A stretch of DNA of 40,073 nt from a virus. Numbering within the stretch: position 1 is the stretch's first letter; the number at the start of each line of letters is the position of its first letter. The notes below the pieces were generated by a model. That model saw only the letters and a program-made list of their open reading frames with translations. It had not been told where the DNA came from and did not search any database. The stretch lies in IMG/VR virus record IMGVR_UViG_3300046360_000073, positions 1 to 40,073 of that record; one strand, 5' to 3'. This document shows positions 6,987 to 40,073 of the stretch, piece by piece. The translations under genes and the position numbers were made by a program.

Positions 6987-9121
6987 TGGCTAAATTCAAT
7001 GTGAAGCTTAAGAATGGACAGGTCGTTCCTATGGAAGCACCTGATGACTGGTCTACCGAGCAGGTTCAAGAAGCTATTCATAAGAATTTCCCTGATGAGA
7101 GTTCTAATCAATCCCAGATACCTGAAACTCCATTCAATAATAGAGTAGCTCCAGAACCAGAGCGTACAGGAGTAGCAGGATTAGCAGGAGATGCAGCAGA
7201 TTTATTTGGCCAAGCATTAAAGTCAGGAACTCAATTCGTAGAAGATATTCCAGAGAATGCCAGTAAGATTGGACAGGATTTTAAGAAGGATCCAGTACAA
7301 GCTCTTGGCCACCATTTAGGGCAGCTTCACGCAAGTAATGCAAATCTTATGAAAGCTGCTGTTAACTCTCCTCACGACCTGCTCAAATATATGCTGAAGA
7401 AGCACCTGGCAATCGATATTCCTTTGGGAGGAAATTTCCCTAAGATTAATGACCTCACTGGAATCGAGCAGAAGCATGCACCTACCATGATGAGTGATTT
7501 AATTCCGCATATCCCAGAGGATACAGGGGTTGAGAAGGCTTTGGGATTAGAAGCTAAACCAGAAAGAGGCGATGAATTGACTCGGGCTATTCCTGCTATT
7601 GCAGCTCTTGGTTCTGGAGGTGCATCTGTAGTGAAGTCTCTTGTCAAGGCGCTCAAATCTCCAAGTAAAAAGAATTTATTCATAAGAGCTTTTGAAGAAA
7701 AGATTGCAGCGGCGAAGAAAGCCAAGGATATGAGCGAGAAAGACATTCAGACGCTGAAGGATACTCATGAGACTCTCTACTCAAATCAATTCAAGAAGCC
7801 ACTTGGTAGAACTTCGCCTACAGGCCAGAGGGTAAGTATTGATGTTAAGACAGGCAAGATGGAGAAGTTGCGTCCAGAAGCAGAGATACCCGAGGAGAAA
7901 GTAGGTGAGATTCCACATGAGCCGGATACTAAATCCATAATAGACGAGAAGAACTCCGTTGCTCAAGCTGCCCGTGAGAGAGCTGAAACGACTTTAGGTC
8001 TGCTTGATCATCCACGTCTTAAGGGTAGTGTTCCCATCAATAAGGCTATAGAGGATGTCCATAAGAGTAGCTCTGATCTCTATAATTCATCCAGGAAATT
8101 CTATGAAGATAAGCATGTTACTGCTGATAATTCTGCGGAGATAAAATCTATCACTAGCGATTTGGAGGCTATGAAGAAAGCGGATGATTTAGCTCCTGGA
8201 TATGGCTCAGGTTCCGAGACTCAGAAGGCTTTAGAATCACATTTAGAAGCTCTAAAAGGCGAGACGGTAGAGGCTAAAGATCTATTTGATCTTCAGAGAA
8301 CCTTGGAGAAAATGGCCAAGAATACTCGTGATAAGCAATATTCTAGCGGTAAATTAACTCAGATTGAACGCGATAGATTGGATAATATAGCTTCTAATTT
8401 CCAGAATCATGCGAGTGGCTTGGCAAAGCGGCTTGAATCCGTTGGCGGCAAAGAAGTTCAATCTATGATTAAGGAAGCTAATAAGGGTTGGAAGATTTAT
8501 AAGGATTTGAGTGAGAGGAATCCTATCGGTAAGGGTGCAATTGCTGGTGAAATTCCAGCCAGAACAATGATTGAGCTTGCTAAGAATCATCCTAGCAATG
8601 AATTTCTTAATGCCTTGGTGCAGTCCAATCCAGACTTGAAGAGATATGTACTTGCTTCGCATGTCGGGGAATCCAGCATCAATAAGCTCGTTAAGCCTGC
8701 TACACTTACCAAGCAATATCTTGCTGAACTACCAGAAGTCGAAGAGCATGTCATAGCCTTTAAGGAAGCCTTGGCCGATGTTAAGACTGGTGAGAGACAA
8801 GCTGCAAAGGTTAAGAAGGAGCACGACGCGCTAGTAACCTCCATGAAGGAAGCAGCTAATAGACAGAAGGCACGCCAATCAGCTATAGCCGAACGTGACA
8901 CTCTATCCAAGCAAATAAAATTCCATGAGAAATCTATTCCAGAGATAGAAGCTAAGATGAAGAAGTATGAGGCAGATAGTACCAAGCATGCTAAGCTACA
9001 GAAGGAACTTGACATGCATAAGCGCAATCTTCAGGAGAAGAATCATCTGTTGAAGAAGTTATTGAAGTCAATAGTTAATATTACTGGTCTATCTACAATA
9101 GCTCATAAGGTCGGGCTATAA
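6986..9121 (+). CDS. Ejection-type protein 3 (P22 gp16 position)
   Basis: 711 residues from the ATG at 6986, preferred over the in-frame ATG at 6977 because it forms TAATG with the previous stop and gives the start MAKFNVKLKNGQVVPMEAPD. That start plus EQVQEAIHKNFPDE is a short domain often found at the N-terminus of large phage internal proteins. A glycine/alanine-rich stretch around residues 190-220 could be membrane-active. The C-terminal third is long coiled coil. No transglycosylase motif is visible. It is the largest member of the presumed DNA-ejection set. Confidence 0.62.
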   Translation: MAKFNVKLKNGQVVPMEAPDDWSTEQVQEAIHKNFPDESSNQSQIPETPFNNRVAPEPERTGVAGLAGDAADLFGQALKSGTQFVEDIPENASKIGQDFKKDPVQALGHHLGQLHASNANLMKAAVNSPHDLLKYMLKKHLAIDIPLGGNFPKINDLTGIEQKHAPTMMSDLIPHIPEDTGVEKALGLEAKPERGDELTRAIPAIAALGSGGASVVKSLVKALKSPSKKNLFIRAFEEKIAAAKKAKDMSEKDIQTLKDTHETLYSNQFKKPLGRTSPTGQRVSIDVKTGKMEKLRPEAEIPEEKVGEIPHEPDTKSIIDEKNSVAQAARERAETTLGLLDHPRLKGSVPINKAIEDVHKSSSDLYNSSRKFYEDKHVTADNSAEIKSITSDLEAMKKADDLAPGYGSGSETQKALESHLEALKGETVEAKDLFDLQRTLEKMAKNTRDKQYSSGKLTQIERDRLDNIASNFQNHASGLAKRLESVGGKEVQSMIKEANKGWKIYKDLSERNPIGKGAIAGEIPARTMIELAKNHPSNEFLNALVQSNPDLKRYVLASHVGESSINKLVKPATLTKQYLAELPEVEEHVIAFKEALADVKTGERQAAKVKKEHDALVTSMKEAANRQKARQSAIAERDTLSKQIKFHEKSIPEIEAKMKKYEADSTKHAKLQKELDMHKRNLQEKNHLLKKLLKSIVNITGLSTIAHKVGL

Positions 9122-9273
9122 TGAATATATGCTATTCAGCAAGGTCATCCATTAGGCTTTGGATGCCGAAGTATAATATAACTAAATAAATTATTGTCAT
9201 CATAATAGTCCCCATGTCTGCAAAGTAAGCAGTATAATGGGTTGAAGGATATAAATCAAGCAAAGGATTTGCT
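9122..9273. other. Intergenic spacer before tail genes
   Basis: 152 bases, AT-rich. A hairpin CATCCA-TTAGGCTT-TGGATG lies near 9148-9167. A TATAAT-like hexamer lies at 9232-9237 (GCAGTATAATGGG), but no good -35 stands 16-18 bases upstream. A weak late promoter for the tail genes is possible. Confidence 0.4.
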
Positions 9274-11472
9274 ATGGCCATACCAATAGATTCGCACTAT
9301 ATACCCGCATTTAGCATCGAGACGGTAATTCTGGATAAAGATACTGGTGCGCCTTTATCTGGTGGCCTAGTCTACTTCGAGCAGGATAATAACCTTGGTG
9401 TATTGAAGCCTGTCTTTCAGATTACAGGTACATCTCCGAACTACACTTTCACTCAGCTTCCAAATCCCATGACACTGAGTGCAATTGGTACATTCGAGGA
9501 TTCGCTTAGTAATCCTGTGGTTCCGTATTTCTATCCCTACAATGCTTCACTAGGTGTTGAGCTATATTATGTGCGAGTGACCAGCGCTGATGATGTGCCT
9601 CAATTTACCCGTCAAGCTGTCCCCTTCATTGCAGGAAGCGGTGTAACTCCAGGTGAATCTAGCTCGATACTCAATGAGCTTAGCAATCCTCAATTTGCAG
9701 AAGTATTCTTCGATTCACCCACTACTTTAAACTTTAATGCGGCTGTGAGTGAGGTAGTAAGTATAGCTCCAGACTGGGATTTAGTGGTGTCAAGCTCAGG
9801 CGTGGCCACTGTTACACTCTCAATTGTGACTCCTACTGGTGCCCTTAATGATCTTACTAATCCAGGGACTATCTTAAGGATTAACTCTGGTGGCGTGACG
9901 ACTTTACTCTTACGTCAGCGTTTAACTGGCTCACCTAATCTTTGGGGTTCTGGATATCTCTCTGGAACATTTGTGGCTCGAACTGGAGCGGGTACATCTA
10001 AAGTCCTTACGCTGAGCTATAGTCAGTCTGACGGTGTAATAGTAGACCAGGTAATATCCACGGGTACGCTAGATGGTTCTGGTACTTATGCAGCTCATCC
10101 GGGAAGTGTCTTCATAGATGCCTCAACCAGTGCAGATTCATTCCCAGATGCTTACATAGATATATTCTTCAACGTCCCTGTATCTTCCGAGATAGATATC
10201 ACGAGTGTCATGGTGGCCTTCACTGATACCGTGAGTGTCCCAGATATCGTATATGATCAAGAGTCTAATGCTAGACAGATTGACCATCTATTCCACTACT
10301 ATAAGCCTGGGTTAGACTTCAAGCCTATTCCTAGTATGCTGGTAGGATGGGATTTCGCAACCAATCCTGCTCAGATATTCGGAGATAACGTTAGTCCTAA
10401 AGCCGTGGGAGCGAATAAATCTTACTATGCTTGGGATCAAACTATTATCTTCCAGACCGTGAATAATTCTATAACGATTGATAGGTCGGTGACAGATTTA
10501 AGCATGAATGTAGTAGCTACTACAGCAGGACAATTTGCATTAATTCAGTACCTCACGGGTAAGCAAGCCACAAAGATTTTCCTCAATATGGCTGATGATG
10601 GCGTTAGAGTTAGTGCGAATGCAGAAGTAGCATCTACTCCTGTAGCTCCCATGACCATATCGCTCTGGTGGTCGGCTAATCCATCGCTTCCAGATATGAA
10701 TTCCAATAACTCTCTCGTGACTGGCTTAGATGCCAATGGTTATCCCACAGTCGTAGGAGGCTGGACGGAAATTACGAGAGATAAAGCTTATTCCGGCCAA
10801 TTTGCCAACTCAGTAGCGAGCAAGTTAGAGAGCTTTGGATTCCCTAACTATAATGACGTAGCACCGTATCTGAATCCTGCAACATTATTCGCTATAGTGA
10901 TTGGGACTGCACCCTTGACTATTAACTCAGTGGTGCAGTTTCAATCCATATCATTAGTTCCTGGCTCAGTTCCCACAATTCCGGCACCTCAGACCCCTGA
11001 CGAAGTCTTAAGGGAATGCCAATATTACTATGAGATAAGCTATGAATCTGGAGACTTGATTGGTACGGCTTCTTTGCCAAGCGAATACTCCTATGCAATG
11101 CCTACAGTGGATGTGGTGACCGGAGCAAATTCTACTAATACATATTACGCTGATACTTTTAATATCAGATATAACACAGTGAAGGTTTCTAGGACGCCCA
11201 TAATAACTCTCTATTCCCCCGTGGCTCCAGTTTCCGCAGGGACAGTATTTGGACAGATGCAAGTCACTGGAGTTCCAGTCGGAACCAAAACAAGCGTTCT
11301 GACTGCTGCTACTTACTGGACGCAAGCAGGGTTAGGTTCTAAAGCAGCTACTTATGTAGCAACCGCTTTATCAGCTATATATACCACTACTCAGGCTGGT
11401 GCAGGCGCGCAGAAATCTAACGGATTGATAATCTTCCAGGCCACTATCGATGCTCGTTTAGGGATAGTTTAA
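9274..11472 (+). CDS. Tail appendage / fibre protein
   Basis: 732 residues. The N-terminal 110 residues (IETVILDKDTGAPLSGGLVY, then LYYVRVTSADDVPQFTRQ) form a beta-rich attachment module found in many phage tail-fibre proteins. A central beta-rich domain follows. The C-terminal 150 residues start with DEVLRECQYYYEISYESG, a segment recurrent in fibre ends of unrelated phages. It probably attaches below the hub and recognises the cell surface. AAAGGAT precedes the ATG. Confidence 0.72.
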   Translation: MAIPIDSHYIPAFSIETVILDKDTGAPLSGGLVYFEQDNNLGVLKPVFQITGTSPNYTFTQLPNPMTLSAIGTFEDSLSNPVVPYFYPYNASLGVELYYVRVTSADDVPQFTRQAVPFIAGSGVTPGESSSILNELSNPQFAEVFFDSPTTLNFNAAVSEVVSIAPDWDLVVSSSGVATVTLSIVTPTGALNDLTNPGTILRINSGGVTTLLLRQRLTGSPNLWGSGYLSGTFVARTGAGTSKVLTLSYSQSDGVIVDQVISTGTLDGSGTYAAHPGSVFIDASTSADSFPDAYIDIFFNVPVSSEIDITSVMVAFTDTVSVPDIVYDQESNARQIDHLFHYYKPGLDFKPIPSMLVGWDFATNPAQIFGDNVSPKAVGANKSYYAWDQTIIFQTVNNSITIDRSVTDLSMNVVATTAGQFALIQYLTGKQATKIFLNMADDGVRVSANAEVASTPVAPMTISLWWSANPSLPDMNSNNSLVTGLDANGYPTVVGGWTEITRDKAYSGQFANSVASKLESFGFPNYNDVAPYLNPATLFAIVIGTAPLTINSVVQFQSISLVPGSVPTIPAPQTPDEVLRECQYYYEISYESGDLIGTASLPSEYSYAMPTVDVVTGANSTNTYYADTFNIRYNTVKVSRTPIITLYSPVAPVSAGTVFGQMQVTGVPVGTKTSVLTAATYWTQAGLGSKAATYVATALSAIYTTTQAGAGAQKSNGLIIFQATIDARLGIV

Positions 11473-20854: not shown

Positions 20855-21664
20855 ATGATAACTAACTTTAATAACAAACTTTTCTGCGATACTAAAGATG
20901 CTAATGTCGCAATCTTCATAGAAAACCTAGCTGGCTGGATCAAACTTAATTCAGGTAAGGACAAGCCAGAAGATAGAAATCATTTCGAAGGCCAATATTG
21001 GTCATACAACTCTTATTCTGAATTCTCCCGATATTTCGAAGGATGGAGCGTCAAAGTTATTCGCGCAATAGTAGCTAAATGTGTAAAGCTCGGATTAATC
21101 CTCATCAGCAATTTCAATAAGAAGCGATATGATAATACCAACTGGTATACCCTTACAGATAAGGCTCTGAGCTACTATCCGCAATTATCTGAAAGGTTTT
21201 CGCACACCCCTGCCCAAACGGGCAGTACCCCTGCCCAAACGGGCAGACCTATACCATCACTTCCTACACAAGATCTAAATAATACTACTAGCACTTCAGA
21301 ACCTTTAACCCCAGAAGTCCCCAGAGAAAAGCCATCTAAGCCGAAGCAGGTTACTCCACGAGAACTCATTGAGATTTATCGTGAAGAGTTTCCTAATAAC
21401 CCTCAACCTCATCCCAGATTGATATCTACGAGTTTACAGAAAGTGCTTAATACTCTTATCAAGCGTTGGCCAGAGATTGACCCTGAAGGTAAATCGCTTA
21501 CCCTCTATGCCTTCAGAACTTACTTATCATTCTTGAAGTCCAATGCACCTAAGTTCAGTTTAGGGGAATATTTCACTGAAGCTGGAAATAGGAAGAAGAA
21601 TGGCTTAGAGACATTCGCACGATGGAATACTATTGTGAAATTTCTGGAGAATCAGTATTCATGA
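20855..21664 (+). CDS. Replication initiator, lambda O-like
   Basis: 269 residues. The N-terminal 120 residues (GQYWSYNSYSEFSRYFEGWS, then VIRAIVAKCVKLGLI, then WYTLTD) read as a winged-helix domain of the kind found in phage O-type initiators. A Pro/Thr/Ser linker follows, encoded partly by two palindromic 21-bp repeats, then a helical C-terminal domain that would contact the helicase. In lambda and P22 the origin also lies inside this gene. The ATG follows AAAGGGATT, and the stop overlaps the helicase start (ATGA). Confidence 0.82.
   Translation: MITNFNNKLFCDTKDANVAIFIENLAGWIKLNSGKDKPEDRNHFEGQYWSYNSYSEFSRYFEGWSVKVIRAIVAKCVKLGLILISNFNKKRYDNTNWYTLTDKALSYYPQLSERFSHTPAQTGSTPAQTGRPIPSLPTQDLNNTTSTSEPLTPEVPREKPSKPKQVTPRELIEIYREEFPNNPQPHPRLISTSLQKVLNTLIKRWPEIDPEGKSLTLYAFRTYLSFLKSNAPKFSLGEYFTEAGNRKKNGLETFARWNTIVKFLENQYS
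21210..21246. other. Lambda-type replication origin iterons
   Basis: CTGCCCAAACGGGCAG occurs at 21210-21225 and 21231-21246, exactly 21 bases apart. Each is a perfect 6-4-6 inverted repeat with AAAC at its centre. Lambda iterons are also inverted repeats around an AAAAC-type centre, inside gene O, next to an AT-rich stretch. Here AT-richer DNA (TCTAAATAATACTACTAG) follows from about 21274. The repeats encode the doubled peptide TPAQTGS/TPAQTGR. Confidence 0.75.
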
Positions 21665-25991: not shown

Positions 25992-26357
25992 ATGACTGAA
26001 TTTAATGCGCATGTACCGAATCGAGATATTCGCCAAAGGGTAAGTGACTTGGCTATTGCTGGAATTCCTAAGTACCTCATTGCTAAGATTGTGAAGCTCG
26101 ATGATGAGACGCTGAATAAGTATTACGAGTATGAATTGTCTTGCGCTCAAGCTGAGTGTGTCGAGCGAATTGGCAAAGTGCTGGCTATTCAGGCTCAAGA
26201 GGGCGATATCAAGGCTATGAGTCTGTACTTAAAGACCCAAGGAGCCAAGTTCGGGTTTGTTGAGAAGCAGGTAGTCGAGACAGTTAATAGTGATGATACA
26301 CTTGCATTAAAAGATAAGATTAAAGAACTAGAGGGGAAATTTGATAGGGATTATTAG
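25992..26357 (+). CDS. terS: Small terminase subunit candidate
   Basis: 121 residues. The N-terminal half (VSDLAIAGIPKYLIAKIVKL, then DDETLNKYYEYEL) reads as the helix-turn-helix of small terminases ('LA--GIP---IA-I-GI---TL--HY--EL'). A helical oligomerisation segment follows, with AxEGDIKAMSLYLKTQGAKFGF, close to the 'A--G---A--FWLKTR-GW' signature of the same family. It would recognise the packaging start site and hand DNA to TerL, although terL lies 9 kb away. Confidence 0.65.
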   Translation: MTEFNAHVPNRDIRQRVSDLAIAGIPKYLIAKIVKLDDETLNKYYEYELSCAQAECVERIGKVLAIQAQEGDIKAMSLYLKTQGAKFGFVEKQVVETVNSDDTLALKDKIKELEGKFDRDY

Positions 26358-27346: not shown

Positions 27347-27901
27347 TTAAGATAGGAGCTTGTAAATTGATGCCCGTGATAATTTCATGAGCAAGGCTAT
27401 TTGGGATATATTATTACCTTGCTTGCTATATTCTATAGCCTCGGGACGCCTATTATAGTCTAAGGGTTGCTTGCCAAATGGCTTGCCGGACTTGGTACCT
27501 CTTTCTTTTGATATGGCAATTCCTTCACGTTGGCGTTCCTTTGACATAGCACGTTCTAATTGGGCGAAGGCAGTCATTACATGTACCATACACATCGCGA
27601 ACATATCGTCTTTATGACCTGATAGGCTCATTCCCTCTTTGACTAATTGTATCTTAGCGCCGGACTTAACTACTTGCTCCACTATCTCTATTAGGTCACG
27701 TACTGATCTACTTAGTCTATCCACGCTATGTATATATAGTATATCACCTTCACGTAAAACGTCTAAACAAACTTTAAGTTGAGGCCTATCCTTAGTAGCT
27801 CCACTCACGTGATCCTCATACACACGGTCTAACTGTATACCATCTAACTGCCTTGCAGTAGATTGCTCCTTAGTGCTCACTCTCTTATAACCTATGTTCA
27901 T
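27347..27901 (-). CDS. Serine recombinase (resolvase/invertase family)
   Basis: 184 residues. The N-terminal catalytic domain has the nucleophile Ser9 in GYKRVST, followed by the YIHSVDRLSRSVRDLIEIVE segment with the conserved D-R-L-x-R motif and MFAMCMVHVMTAFAQLERAM, the long E-helix start. The C-terminal 45 residues are a Hin-type helix-turn-helix (ISQIALLMKLSRASIYKLLS). It is complete and of normal length. It is too small for a large-serine phage integrase, so it is expected to invert or resolve DNA between two short sites. Confidence 0.93.
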   Translation of the reverse strand: MNIGYKRVSTKEQSTARQLDGIQLDRVYEDHVSGATKDRPQLKVCLDVLREGDILYIHSVDRLSRSVRDLIEIVEQVVKSGAKIQLVKEGMSLSGHKDDMFAMCMVHVMTAFAQLERAMSKERQREGIAISKERGTKSGKPFGKQPLDYNRRPEAIEYSKQGNNISQIALLMKLSRASIYKLLS

Positions 27902-32248: not shown

Positions 32249-32455
32249 ATGAAGGATTTCGAGTTGCAGGAGATTAAGGACTACTGGGCAGAGAAATATC
32301 CAGCAATCTTTATCTCCTTATCAGGTAATGAGGATGGCACTAAGTTTTATGGACGTATGTCGATTAAGGAAGAGAGTATAGATTTAGCCGCTGATACTAT
32401 AGGTGAGCTGATTGGTCAAGGTGAGAATTTTTTGAGAAAGGTTACTAAGGTATGA
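32249..32455 (+). CDS. Hypothetical protein
   Basis: 68 residues with GAGGAGAACAAGG before the ATG. A short alpha-beta pattern is visible: LQEIKDYWAEKYPAIFISLS, then TKFYGRMSIKEE. It directly precedes the IS66-like pair with an ATGA overlap, so it may be part of the same unit. Function unknown. Confidence 0.58.
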   Translation: MKDFELQEIKDYWAEKYPAIFISLSGNEDGTKFYGRMSIKEESIDLAADTIGELIGQGENFLRKVTKV

Positions 32456-33060
32456 GCGTATATAAGTCAAGTTACTCCGATGAGGAATTGTGGTTCTGGT
32501 ATTGTCAAGTTGAAGCATGTGAAGGTTCCAAGAGTATGCATAGCAAGTATGCAGAGGCGAATGGCTTGGACAAGTATAAATTCGCCTTCATGAAGTATAG
32601 GTTTCATTACAAGAAGTATACTAATCCAGAAGAATATTATCGGGTTCTTCCCATCGGTCAGGCTTATATTAATTCAGATCTTAGTAAACCCAAGTTCCTA
32701 AATAAGTATGCGTATGATATTCAGACAAGTATCCTTACCGCAGTCGGTTCGCATGTGAATCATCTGAATATTATAGAGCGCATCAAGCGCGAGAAGGGAT
32801 TGGCCTTGGATGATGAGACACCTATTCCGCCTCCTGCGCCTATACAATCTGAACCAGATTCTAAAGGGATGTCTTTCTATCAGGTGCCATCATCTAAAGC
32901 TATTGCTGAGCATGTTGAGCTAGAACCCGATCATGCCGAGATTCTCCAGAAGCAGAATGAGATTGAGATTACTATTAATCAGGGTGTGAAGGTAATTGTA
33001 TCGCCCCATATCGATTCTATGAAGATTATTAAGATTATTAATTTACTAAAGGACTTATGA
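32452..33060 (+). CDS. IS66 Orf1 (TnpA)-like protein
   Basis: 202 residues. The N-terminal part (SYSDEELWFWYCQVEACEGS, then HSKYAEANGLDKYKFAFMKY) has the look of a helix-turn-helix of the IS66 Orf1 type. The C-terminal IEITINQGVKVIVSPHIDSM followed by IKIINLLKDL matches the closing 'IEI-L-NGV-V-V---VD---L---L--L' of IS66 Orf1. A Pro-rich linker joins them. It overlaps the Orf2-like gene by four bases, the same order as in IS66. The overall match is weaker than for Orf2. Confidence 0.62.
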   Translation: MSVYKSSYSDEELWFWYCQVEACEGSKSMHSKYAEANGLDKYKFAFMKYRFHYKKYTNPEEYYRVLPIGQAYINSDLSKPKFLNKYAYDIQTSILTAVGSHVNHLNIIERIKREKGLALDDETPIPPPAPIQSEPDSKGMSFYQVPSSKAIAEHVELEPDHAEILQKQNEIEITINQGVKVIVSPHIDSMKIIKIINLLKDL

Positions 33061-33419
33061 TGTTAATTCCGTATGAGAATAAGAATATCTTTATCGCGAC
33101 AAAGCCCACTGACTTTAGAATGTCTATAGATGGTTTGGCGAATTTCATTCAGCGAGAGAAGAACGCGCATCTCCACGATGGCAGTATATACGTCTTCTAT
33201 AATAAGCATCGGGATAAAATCAAGTGTCTCTTCTGGGATAGGAATGGTTTCGTGCTGTATTATAAGCGGCTAGATAAATGTAAGTTCAAGCTGAAAGATC
33301 GGTTGCATGAGATTGAGAGTATGACGGCTGAGGAATTGGAGGTTCTTCTCTCAGGATTTGAGCTTCAGAATGCAGAGAGAAAAGAATGTAAGGGTATATT
33401 GCTGGAGCATAAGAGATGA
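33057..33419 (+). CDS. IS66 Orf2 (TnpB)-like protein
   Basis: 120 residues. IPYENKNIFIATKPTDFRMS, then IDGLANFIQRE, GSIYVFYNKHRDKIKCLFWD, GFVLYYKRLDKCKF and LTAEELEVLLSGFEL track the IS66 Orf2 family closely ('TD-RKG-DGLA-LV', 'G-LFVFR-RR-DRIK-L-WD--G--L-YKRLE-G-F'). The protein is full length and undamaged. No IS66 transposase (TnpC, DDE) or terminal repeats accompany it, so it has probably been recruited by the phage. Its normal biochemical role in IS66 is not settled. Confidence 0.82.
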   Translation: MMLIPYENKNIFIATKPTDFRMSIDGLANFIQREKNAHLHDGSIYVFYNKHRDKIKCLFWDRNGFVLYYKRLDKCKFKLKDRLHEIESMTAEELEVLLSGFELQNAERKECKGILLEHKR

Positions 33420-33604
33420 CGGATGAAGATGTTAGGGAATTAGTAGGTAAGTTGAATCATATGGCTTTCCTTCTAGGGCATGTAGTGGGAAGCTTATCCG
33501 CGATAACGTGCGGAGACCCTCATATGTGCCACAATGAGCAGATAAAGATATTGCTTGATAGAGTATTAAATGGATTGGATATAGATGGAGTGCCAGAGAG
33601 ATGA
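33416..33604 (+). CDS. Hypothetical protein
   Basis: 62 residues, helical with one hydrophobic stretch (MAFLLGHVVGSLSAI) and a Cys/His segment (CGDPHMCHNE). Start and stop overlap neighbours (ATGA each side). It follows the IS66-like pair directly. No family is recognised. Confidence 0.55.
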   Translation: MTDEDVRELVGKLNHMAFLLGHVVGSLSAITCGDPHMCHNEQIKILLDRVLNGLDIDGVPER

Positions 33605-33810
33605 CTACTGTACTGTGCAGCATATTAACTTTTGGTCTATCATTGAGCGTCCTGAGTGGGTGCGTCAGCATATACCTATTAGGGAAATCATTTGGCAGAA
33701 TTCCTTTACTAGAGGCGAGACTTACTTTGGTAGAACTGCGCCTACTACGGTTCGTTCAAGAGCATGATGGTAGCCAGACTTGCTATCCTAAAGGGACTCT
33801 AGATAGTTAG
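33601..33810 (+). CDS. Small membrane protein with LSGC motif
   Basis: 69 residues. A hydrophobic N-terminus (VLCSILTFGLSLSVLSGCVS) contains LSGC, formally a lipobox, but there is no positive charge before it, so a membrane anchor is as likely. A basic/Leu-rich helix (LTLVELRLLRFVQEH) follows. It could be a spanin-like or membrane accessory protein; that is only a suggestion. It is the last gene before the structured RNA region. Confidence 0.55.
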   Translation: MTTVLCSILTFGLSLSVLSGCVSIYLLGKSFGRIPLLEARLTLVELRLLRFVQEHDGSQTCYPKGTLDS

Positions 33811-33834: not shown

Positions 33835-34031
33835 GCGTGTCGCTTCTTGTCGAGCGGTTCCATTGTAGCAGCCCTCTACAGCGCTAATGGGCACTTACTT
33901 AGATAAGTGCGGCTGTAAAAGCAGATAGTACTTTCAAGGCCTGAGCTATATTCTGTGAAGTCCGAGACCTGGCCACGAGTTGCGGTGTGAAACTTCACCT
34001 AAGCTGAGATGCTTACACTTATCACCATTTT
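33835..34031 (+). ncRNA. Structured RNA with pseudoknot and a CCA-ended, closed element
   Basis: CCATT/AATGG (33860-33864, 33886-33890) encloses hairpin GTAG-CAGCCCT-CTAC, whose loop CAGCC can pair with GGCTG at 33911-33915, a pseudoknot. GATAAGTG (33902-33909) pairs perfectly with CACTTATC (34016-34023), which is followed directly by ACCA. Stacked on that helix with no gap is TAAGC-TGAGAT-GCTTA (34000-34015), and GTGAAGT/ACTTCAC (33955-33961, 33992-33998) lies one base further in. This is a tRNA-like plan in a 126-nt element. A local hairpin GCACTTA/TAAGTGC competes with the closing helix. Confidence 0.6.
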
Positions 34032-34122
34032 AGCGGGATATTTTGGCTGACGATACTTGCGCACGATAAGCTCACGATGAGTCATATGCTCCTCAGGATA
34101 GCAGGGAAAATAGGCCACCAAT
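34032..34122 (+). ncRNA. tRNA-sized element between ACCA ends (degenerate tRNA?)
   Basis: This 89-nt block starts AGCGGGATATTTT, the same as the 5' end of the CAT tRNA at 34202, and ends ATAGGCCACCA two bases before tRNA-Asn. TATTTT (34039-34044) can pair with AAAATA (34107-34112). The end ATAGGCCACCA also occurs at 30595-30605. It occupies a slot of a tRNA array but has no normal cloverleaf. Confidence 0.45.
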
Positions 34123-34197
34123 TCCGAGGTAGTTCAGAGGTAGAACGGAAGACTGTTAATCTTTATGTCGAAGGTTCGACTCCTTCCCTCGGAGCCA
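34123..34197 (+). tRNA. tRNA-Asn(GTT), CCA encoded
   Basis: A fully canonical cloverleaf: acceptor TCCGAGG/CCTCGGA, D arm GTTC/GAAC, anticodon stem GAAGA/TCTTT with loop CTGTTAA (anticodon GTT), T arm GAAGG-TTCGACT-CCTTC, discriminator G and encoded CCA (34195-34197). Confidence 0.97.
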
Positions 34198-34201
34198 TTT
34201 T

Positions 34202-34276
34202 AGCGGGATATTTCAATGGTAGAAAGCTGGTTTCATACGCCAGATGTCCTAGGTTCGAATCCTAGTCCCGCACCCA
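34202..34276 (+). tRNA. tRNA with CAT anticodon (Met or Ile2), CCA encoded
   Basis: Acceptor AGCGGGA/TCCCGCA (A1-A72 unpaired), D arm TTTC/GAAA, anticodon stem CTGGT/GCCAG with loop TTCATAC (anticodon CAT), T arm CTAGG-TTCGAAT-CCTAG, then C and CCA. It lacks the three G-C pairs of initiator tRNA, so it is an elongator Met or, if C34 is modified to lysidine, an AUA-reading Ile tRNA. The open 1-72 pair is unusual outside initiators. Confidence 0.92.
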
Positions 34277-34567: not shown

Positions 34568-34972
34568 ATGACAGATATATTCGTATTCGGAAGTAACCTG
34601 ATGGGCATCCATGGTGCTGGAGCTGCTCGTTATGCGAATCTTCATCATGGAGCAGTTATGGGGAGAGGAATAGGTCTTGAAGGAACTTCCTATGCTATCC
34701 CGACTAAGGCTCATCCATTTAGAACCCTACCACTCTTCGATATTAATAAGTATGTGGCTGATTTCCTAATCTGCGCTAAGTTATCTCCAGAATACACTTA
34801 CTTAGTAACCAAGATTGGCTGCGGACTTGCCGGATATACGCCTTCAGATATTGCCCCAATGTTCCATCTCGTGAAGCATTTAAATAATGTTAAGCTCCCC
34901 AAGGAATTCTTCGAATATCTCCCTCAAATAGATTTTAACCCCAACATGGTCGCAACTTTCCCCAACTTCTAG
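34568..34972 (+). CDS. Macro-domain-like protein (A1S_2505-type phage family)
   Basis: 134 residues. MTDIFVFGSNLMGIHGAGAA, then HHGAVMGRGIGLEGTSYAIP, and VTKIGCGLAGY define a family common in phages that resembles macro domains: the GSN-L-G-HG-GAA loop and the GCGLAGY loop would hold ADP-ribose or a related nucleotide. It could act in anti-defence by clearing ADP-ribose signals or modifications, which is inference. It starts directly after the structured RNA region and stands alone before the terminase operon. Confidence 0.78.
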   Translation: MTDIFVFGSNLMGIHGAGAARYANLHHGAVMGRGIGLEGTSYAIPTKAHPFRTLPLFDINKYVADFLICAKLSPEYTYLVTKIGCGLAGYTPSDIAPMFHLVKHLNNVKLPKEFFEYLPQIDFNPNMVATFPNF

Positions 34973-39658: not shown

Positions 39659-40073
39659 ATGGATGCAAAGGATATTGCAGAAGAATTGCAAGATACTAAC
39701 GTGGTGGAATCTGAAGAGCTTAAACAGCCTGATGATGCACCTCCTGAGAAAATGCTATCTGTCTCCCGAGTGAATGAGCTTGTAAAGAAGGCTAAACGCG
39801 ATGGAGAACGGAAGATGCAAGAGCAATTAGATGCCGCAAAGGCTCGGATAGAACAGCTTCAGGCTCAAGGCCAGCAGCAAGCTCCTAATCAGCAGCAAGC
39901 AGTACCACAGCAACAAGGTGCCAATGCCGAGATGATTCAGCAGCGTGTGATGGAATTAATGCAGCAGAAGCAGTTAGAAGATGAGCGTAAGCGTGAAACT
40001 GATCAGCTAGAACAGGAAGTGCAGCAAGTGGCTCAACAGTACTTCGGTAAGATGGCTCAAGGTAAGGTTATGT
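39659..40073 (+). CDS. Scaffold-like protein, N-terminal part (continues at base 1)
   Basis: The ATG at 39659 follows GAGG six bases upstream and opens a frame that leaves the window and continues at base 3 in the same frame to the TAG at 471-473, giving 251 residues in all. The protein is highly charged and predicted coiled coil: an acidic start, a Lys/Arg-rich helix, then a Gln-rich stretch. Its position between portal and coat matches P22 gene 8, whose product guides coat assembly and then leaves the procapsid. The assignment rests on position and composition; no sequence motif proves it. A structured leader of about 120 nt lies directly upstream. Confidence 0.8.
   Translation, partial: MDAKDIAEELQDTNVVESEELKQPDDAPPEKMLSVSRVNELVKKAKRDGERKMQEQLDAAKARIEQLQAQGQQQAPNQQQAVPQQQGANAEMIQQRVMELMQQKQLEDERKRETDQLEQEVQQVAQQYFGKMAQGKVM
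39942..40073. repeat. Terminal redundancy of the contig (right copy)
   Basis: Right copy of bases 1-132. The single mismatch at 40068 changes an Asp codon (left copy, GAT) to Val (right copy, GTT) in the scaffold-like gene. It may be a read-end error or a true polymorphism. Confidence 0.93.

Follow-up and report, generated by a model that had tools for sequence, protein, structure and literature searches.

An IS66-type TnpA-TnpB gene pair that phages carry without a transposase

Why would a phage carry two accessory genes of a transposon without the transposase? The window (by which we mean the whole 40,073-nucleotide stretch of DNA that was analyzed, IMG/VR virus record IMGVR_UViG_3300046360_000073) raises this question. 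On its plus strand, it encodes Orf1, a protein of 202 amino acids (32452-33060), and then Orf2, a protein of 120 amino acids (33057-33419). A reading of the sequence alone had taken these to be the accessory pair of IS66, exapted by the phage. IS66 is a widespread family of insertion sequences, and we know of no established role for its TnpA or TnpB proteins. In one published account, TnpC, the last of the three genes, is presumed to be the active transposase (PMC6778807). A natural TnpA-TnpB pair without TnpC separates the accessory function from catalysis, so that it is open to simple assays. We argue that the pair is almost certainly a transposase-free module derived from IS66, and we consider what it might do for the phage.

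The locus, its neighbors, and the missing transposase

The reading frames of Orf1 and Orf2 are open and intact and overlap by ATGA, and further ATGA overlaps join the flanking ORFs to the pair on both sides. The sequence-only reading was right about the coordinates, the overlap, the lack of damage, and the coupled run of genes. Just upstream, the 68-amino-acid ORF that is coupled to Orf1 (32249-32455, plus strand, function unassigned) has tblastn matches in 10 other contigs. It is the usual gene upstream of the pair in the close clade, and it persists in several genomes that lack the pair. Downstream, the 62-amino-acid ORF that is coupled to Orf2 (33416-33604, plus strand) has no convincing relative among the contigs that we searched. 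Next comes a 69-amino-acid ORF (33601-33810, plus strand) that looks like a single-pass membrane protein, with the membrane segment placed by eye; small ORFs of similar appearance come after Orf2 in several relatives. The likely ribosome-binding site of Orf2 is AAAGGA (33048-33053, plus strand), which lies within the codons for LLKDL, the conserved end of Orf1. The site has this location across the family, and in most members it reads AAAGGA. Orf2 starts in the relatives at the second ATG, which is position 33060 in the window, and the window's Orf2 may start there as well instead of at 33057.

Orf2 is a typical member of its family, as had been claimed: it matches PF05717 (E = 6.8e-31, 106.6 bits as compared to a cutoff of 26.6) and the NCBIfam equivalog NF033819, IS66_TnpB (96.7 bits as compared to a cutoff of 50). 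The mean pairwise identity of the phage Orf2 proteins is 72%, and they are under strong purifying selection (median pN/pS of 0.19 across 78 pairs from 13 sequences). A sequence search found no relative of Orf2 with a solved structure, and its structure model is poor (pLDDT 66). This low-confidence model weakly resembles YTH/PUA-like domains: in the VIA comparison, YTH domains come out on top (Z 4.7, rmsd 4.3, 96 residues aligned), together with SH2 (Z 4.6, rmsd 3.4, 72 aligned). We base nothing on these likenesses. There was no useful match in BFVD.

The window contains no TnpC, either by PF03050 or by tblastn with two TnpC proteins at E ≤ 1, and no degraded TnpC was found near the pair. The ends of the window repeat 132 bases with 131 matches (1-132 versus 39942-40073), which gives a genome of about 39.9 kb; because the window is a closed circular assembly, such absences hold for the whole genome. 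The relatives lack TnpC as well. PF03050 is absent from 27 of 28 records, and the single match is the genuine IS66 of locus L027. With the same two TnpC queries at E ≤ 1, tblastn found nothing in 25 contigs and recovered both controls. In total, we know of 35 phage-type loci (including the window), and the pair lacks TnpC in 32 of the 32 that are covered by these tests; the loci of L151, L337, and L342 lie outside this count. In bacterial genomes, TnpC lies within 2.5 kb downstream at 70 of 80 TnpB loci; of the 10 without it, 7 run out within 900 bases.

Nor are there any ends of an element. IS66 elements duplicate 8 bp of their target, and they have terminal inverted repeats. Our repeat scan found none of the IS66 type around the pair in this region of the window, while in two genuine IS66 elements, it found clean terminal repeats that begin with GTAAGCG, 22 bp long in one and 24 bp in the other. 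This motif occurs in the window at chance level (4 found as compared to 2.6 expected, and 2 of the 4 are one site that is counted twice via the terminal repeat). Furthermore, since the pair overlaps its neighbors by ATGA at either side, there is no space for ends directly beside its genes. So, of the components of a complete IS66, the window has TnpB and, by family, TnpA, but neither TnpC nor terminal repeats, and the earlier claims that these two are missing were correct.

Orf1 as a remodeled TnpA

The assignment of Orf1 is less direct. Searched on its own, the window's Orf1 has no convincing match in Pfam, PHROGs (one row at chance level), NCBIfam, or PADLOC, no tblastn match in 50,697 phage records, and no match in a pattern scan of viral contigs. 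So Orf1 cannot be identified from the window's sequence alone, and its family came to light solely through the genes that adjoin Orf2. NF047593 (IS66 TnpA) matches 17 of the 22 aligned members of this family at E ≤ 0.01. Of five phage relatives that were scanned singly, four pass the 28-bit cutoff of NF047593 (37.1, 43.8, 31, and 35.4 bits), and L025 falls below it at 12.3 bits. Finally, a profile of the Orf1 family aligns to a profile of 22 genuine IS66 TnpAs (alignment A3) with P = 3.8e-11 overall. (Alignment A1 of Orf1 has 22 rows, the window and 21 others, and omits L003, L010, and L024, which are incomplete, as well as L005 and L021, which are near-duplicates; alignment A2 has 24 rows and omits L003, L005, and L021.) The IS66 relation that was proposed for 32452-33060 therefore stands by way of the relatives and the profile comparison, although the window's Orf1 by itself matches nothing.

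The profile comparisons and an AlphaFold2 model (pLDDT 83) divide Orf1 into four parts, all on the plus strand. Helix-turn-helix (HTH) unit 1 (residues 10-52, 32479-32607) has three helices and matches IS66 TnpA with P = 4.4e-10 and a probability of 97% from hhalign. HTH unit 2 (residues 59-114, 32626-32793) matches the same region of TnpA (P = 3e-6, 89%) and is a duplicate of unit 1 (P = 2.6e-7, 94%). Both of these three-helix units are modeled mostly at pLDDT above 90, and neither matches the C-terminus of TnpA (probability 0). A linker follows (residues 115-165, 32794-32946; pLDDT mostly 50-68), with an SFxxV motif, and then a conserved strand-strand-helix, the C-tail (residues 166-202, 32947-33057), which is collinear with the C-terminus of TnpA. 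The genuine TnpAs that we examined are 98-120 amino acids long with a single HTH unit of about 50 amino acids. Orf1 does not fit this short form: the HTH is there, but it is duplicated, in a protein of 202 amino acids. The profile comparison thus makes Orf1 a TnpA that has gained a second copy of its N-terminal HTH domain. The sequence-only reading had noticed a C-terminus like that of IS66 Orf1, and the C-tail does align to the TnpA C-terminus from end to end, but the match is weak when taken alone (P = 9e-4, probability 18%). Orf1 has two HTH units and not one; this duplication was out of reach of the sequence-only reading, as were the Legionella-type origin, the exchange between groups of phages, and the integrase or ParA of relatives that lack the pair, all of which are described below.

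Comparisons of the Orf1 model to the PDB gave nothing strong (best E of 1.3 from Foldseek and best Z of 3.4 from VIA). The top VIA neighbors are mostly HTH proteins, all of them weak: LsrR (Z 3.4), ArdK (Z 3.3), and CENP-B (Z 3.2). There was no match in BFVD.

The two ends of Orf1 are conserved to different extents. Mean pairwise identity is 24% for each of the two HTH units and 56% for the C-tail, while in genuine IS66 TnpAs, the HTH (36%) and the C-terminus (32%) are alike. We infer that this contrast would suit a DNA reader that varies in specificity and yet retains its interface with a constant Orf2. The median pN/pS of Orf1 is 0.55 (from the same 13 sequences), with sites that are nearly saturated, so diversification of the heads looks the same as relaxed constraint. 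Also, the ribosome-binding site of Orf2 that is embedded in the C-tail may account for part of the C-tail's conservation.

We also considered whether Orf1 could be a small terminase that recognizes the pac site. It lies 2 kb upstream of the large terminase gene, TerL, and it has HTH heads. But there is a separate TerS-like gene at 25992-26354 (identified by its look, and remote from TerL), which is found in all 9 of the pair-bearing close genomes (including the window), in all 4 that lack the pair, and in G030. Also, the genomes that lack the pair use the same TerL (84-88% identical). We rejected this idea, which seems extremely unlikely. In many relatives, the gene directly before TerL encodes a phrog_2072 protein of unassigned function; in the window, this is a 134-amino-acid protein at 34568-34972.

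Origin and exchange of the pair

A scan of IMG/VR with the Orf2 protein yielded 27 loci, of which L027 stands apart at 35% identity and the other 26 lie at 59-83%. An Orf1-type gene lies directly before Orf2 in all 26 of these first loci (3 are incomplete). A profile scan brings the phage-type contigs from IMG/VR to 31, and a search anchored on the terminase adds G034 and G043, with Orf2 at 54% and 42% identity. Among the 80 matches listed from the 84,980 species genomes of GTDB, there is one phage-type locus, and it is a whole phage contig: 41 kb, with the same phage genes, within a metagenome-assembled genome of Desulfosporosinus. This contig (G061:C214, L365-L367) is one of these phages, and it is probably a binning error and not an indication of the host.

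In a tree of 79 TnpB sequences, all 32 rows of the phage type fall into a single clade (support 99/96). Its sister is the TnpB of an IS66 element on a plasmid of Legionella israelensis (support 98/90), and that plasmid, NZ_CP038274, also has the best TnpB match among 72,556 plasmids (48% identity). Because long branches meet in this part of the tree, we are more confident in the single clade than in the identity of its sister. The single clade implies one old capture and not a recent insertion. Together with the retention of the pair without TnpC and the purifying selection on Orf2, it points to exaptation or long retention; the earlier suggestion of exaptation is thus well supported, by 32 TnpC-free loci, the one clade, and the low pN/pS of Orf2.

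Could the pair instead be the remnant of a recent or decaying IS66 insertion? Membership in the family is all that speaks for this. Against it, synonymous changes have reached saturation in most pairwise comparisons even as the proteins are conserved, the phage genes form one deep clade, and there is no TnpC and no ends. Also, the GC content of the pair (40.1%) equals that of its flanks (40.2%), unlike that of the two IS66 elements (44.6% and 48.2%). Given the conservation and the single clade, we rejected this explanation, which strikes us as barely credible.

The pair has not stayed with one lineage of phages. In G013, G018, and G024, no relative of the window's TerL is detectable and the portal is just 22-26% identical, yet Orf2 is 64-74% identical to the window's. 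Conversely, TerL of G034 and G043 is 86% and 81% identical to the window's, and Orf2 just 54% and 42%. So Orf2 does not track the phage backbone, and the comparisons show that the pair has moved between distantly related phages. In G043 and G023, the pair is located elsewhere in the genome. In G033 and G047, neither of which has the pair, another small ORF comes after the 68-amino-acid ORF, which implies that the pair is gained and lost cleanly. In G030 (L175-L177), Orf1 is cut after the HTH units and Orf2 is gone; unless this is a fault of the assembly, at least one genome would seem to manage without the pair. Either natural loss or an assembly fault could explain the break in G030. A short GC-rich stretch lies there between the cut Orf1 and the missing Orf2 region, at the closure of the contig.

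A mobile module raises the possibility of a non-autonomous element that is moved in trans by the TnpC of a host IS66, or of a phage that integrates by means of a borrowed TnpC. TnpA and TnpB are kept intact, they are found in varied phage backgrounds and positions, and the nearest IS66 comes from a plausible group of hosts. But our scan finds no IS66-type ends around the pair, although it detects them in two real IS66 elements, and the ATGA junctions leave them no room beside the genes. Also, a single phage-type locus appears in the 80 matches listed from GTDB, and it lies on a whole phage contig. We consider this explanation to be quite improbable.

What the pair might do, and how it compares to known systems

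A hint as to function comes from close relatives that lack the pair. Among the genomes whose TerL is 78-88% identical to the window's, just two, G033 and G035, have a tyrosine integrase, and just one, G047, has ParA; all three lack the pair. Neither gene is found in any of the 9 pair-bearing genomes (the window, G007, G008, G011, G015, G021, G034, G043, and C214, which was checked for ParA by tblastn with the G047 protein only). This contrast between 3 of 4 pair-lacking genomes (G033, G035, G038, and G047) and 0 of 9 has p = 0.014 by Fisher's exact test, for a pattern that we spotted post hoc in a small sample of relatives that are not independent. G030, with its broken pair, was kept apart from this count; if it is counted as lacking the pair, then it is 3 of 5 versus 0 of 9 (p = 0.027, computed by hand). 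The count leaves out the fragments G042 and G058, which have the pair and neither integrase nor ParA, as well as distant genomes. Terminal repeats mark the contigs as closed for the window, G007, G011, G021, G043, G033, G038, G047, and G030; we found no such repeats in G008, G015, G034, G035, or C214. The pattern has exceptions: G038 and G030 are alike in lacking the pair, integrase, and ParA, and three distant genomes without the pair (G050, G054, and G057) have neither integrase nor ParA.

In G047, ParA is directly upstream of the 68-amino-acid ORF. In G033, the integrase is upstream of that ORF with one small ORF intervening. In G035, the integrase and one kinase occupy the place where others have the pair. 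A serine recombinase (PF00239) occurs in both pair-bearing and pair-lacking records (14 of 27 in all) and hence does not account for this contrast.

We also noticed several other features of these genomes. G035 (L181-L183, record 2660238140) is prophage-like: besides the integrase, it has host-like genes and two hybrid sensor kinases, both of them large. Judging by the appearance of its flanks, our guess is that its host is Legionella-like. The window's own serine recombinase (27347-27901, minus strand) matches PF00239 and a PHROG for DNA invertases. A replication-initiation-like gene (20855-21664) contains two perfect 21-bp tandem copies (21206-21246), which we take to resemble a lambda O-type origin. 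An Rfam scan of the window found two tRNAs only, and an exact 19-bp direct repeat (34025-34043 and 34195-34213) flanks the gene for tRNA-Asn. This repeat is possibly the trace of a change in a tRNA array or of an attachment site.

On balance, we lean towards the following explanation, if only by a little. A phage captured an IS66 TnpA-TnpB module once, probably from a Legionella-type IS66; the module lost its transposase and its ends, and the HTH domain of TnpA was duplicated. Orf1 would read DNA through its two HTH heads, with a specificity that differs from phage to phage, while its C-tail docks on a nearly constant Orf2. Judging from their sequences, Orf1 and Orf2 probably do form a DNA-binding complex of two proteins. 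The complex would work at sites within the genome of the phage itself and control or maintain that genome in the cell, through regulation of lysogeny or through segregation or retention of an episomal form. This last step is the most tentative: we suggest a role in maintenance or lysogeny because close relatives without the pair carry integrase or ParA, and while it is the role that we consider most likely, we would not bet on it. Speaking against the explanation, we found neither an iteron-like array nor a conserved site next to the pair. Scans for promoters and terminators were at chance level. A bolder version, in which a dual-HTH reader and a constant TnpB clamp make up a new genome-maintenance module that replaces integrase or ParA, with each phage having its own site, is speculative and rather unlikely. 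It would give TnpA and TnpB a job outside of transposition, and it would suggest that in IS66 itself, the two proteins make up a complex for the recognition or pairing of ends.

A plain transcription regulator is nearly as likely. The complex might run an early-to-late switch or provide immunity to superinfection, with no part in maintaining DNA. The tandem HTH fold fits such a regulator, HTH proteins make up most of the top structural neighbors of Orf1, all of them weak, and divergent heads with a constant partner would fit a set of immunity types. On the other hand, a regulator does not by itself explain the swap with integrase or ParA, and we found no operator-like repeats beside the pair. 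A plain regulator seems possible but doubtful.

The pair could also be a dominant-negative decoy that blocks the transposition of a host IS66 into the phage, or that counters a host defense. Its mosaic distribution and horizontal exchange are typical of accessory modules, and the pair has retained its partner interface but not the transposase. However, PADLOC matches neither the pair nor its neighbors, and a decoy has no need of a duplicated HTH or of divergent heads. This seems improbable to us. If the maintenance reading is correct, then these phages have a new way of persisting.

How does the pair compare to known systems? In a full-text search, for which most subscription journals are outside of the coverage, we found no description of an IS66 TnpA-TnpB pair that is kept by phages without the transposase. 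Phages do carry genuine copies of IS66. L027 is one, in a phage record: it has TnpB, but unlike the phage pair, it has its own TnpC and perfect 24-bp repeats. The Leptospira phages KF114880 and KF114877 carry genuine IS66 copies according to their annotations. In INPHARED, IS66 TnpB is found in 15 records, at 24-37% identity to the window's Orf2, and several of these are annotated as parts of IS66. The tyrosine integrase and ParA partition modules of G033, G035, and G047 lie in the same region of the genome as the pair does in others, but they have no sequence relation to it.

The closest known system is the IS66 element of the L. israelensis plasmid NZ_CP038274, with TnpA at 8342-8683, TnpB at 8683-9036, and TnpC at 9130-10719. 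Its TnpB, the nearest IS66 TnpB that we found, aligns to Orf2 over 104 residues. The order of tnpA and tnpB and their overlap at the stop codon are as in the phages. In contrast to the phage pair, this element has TnpC and 22-bp terminal repeats, and its TnpA has 113 amino acids and one HTH instead of 202 amino acids and two. Thus, Orf1 and Orf2 belong to the same families as the accessory proteins of IS66 (NF047593 for TnpA; PF05717 and NF033819 for TnpB), and they differ from them in the duplication of the HTH, in the divergence of the heads, and in having no TnpC as a partner. Exaptation is itself a known phenomenon, and this pair is a clear case of an old and repeatedly exchanged exaptation of a transposon's accessory genes.
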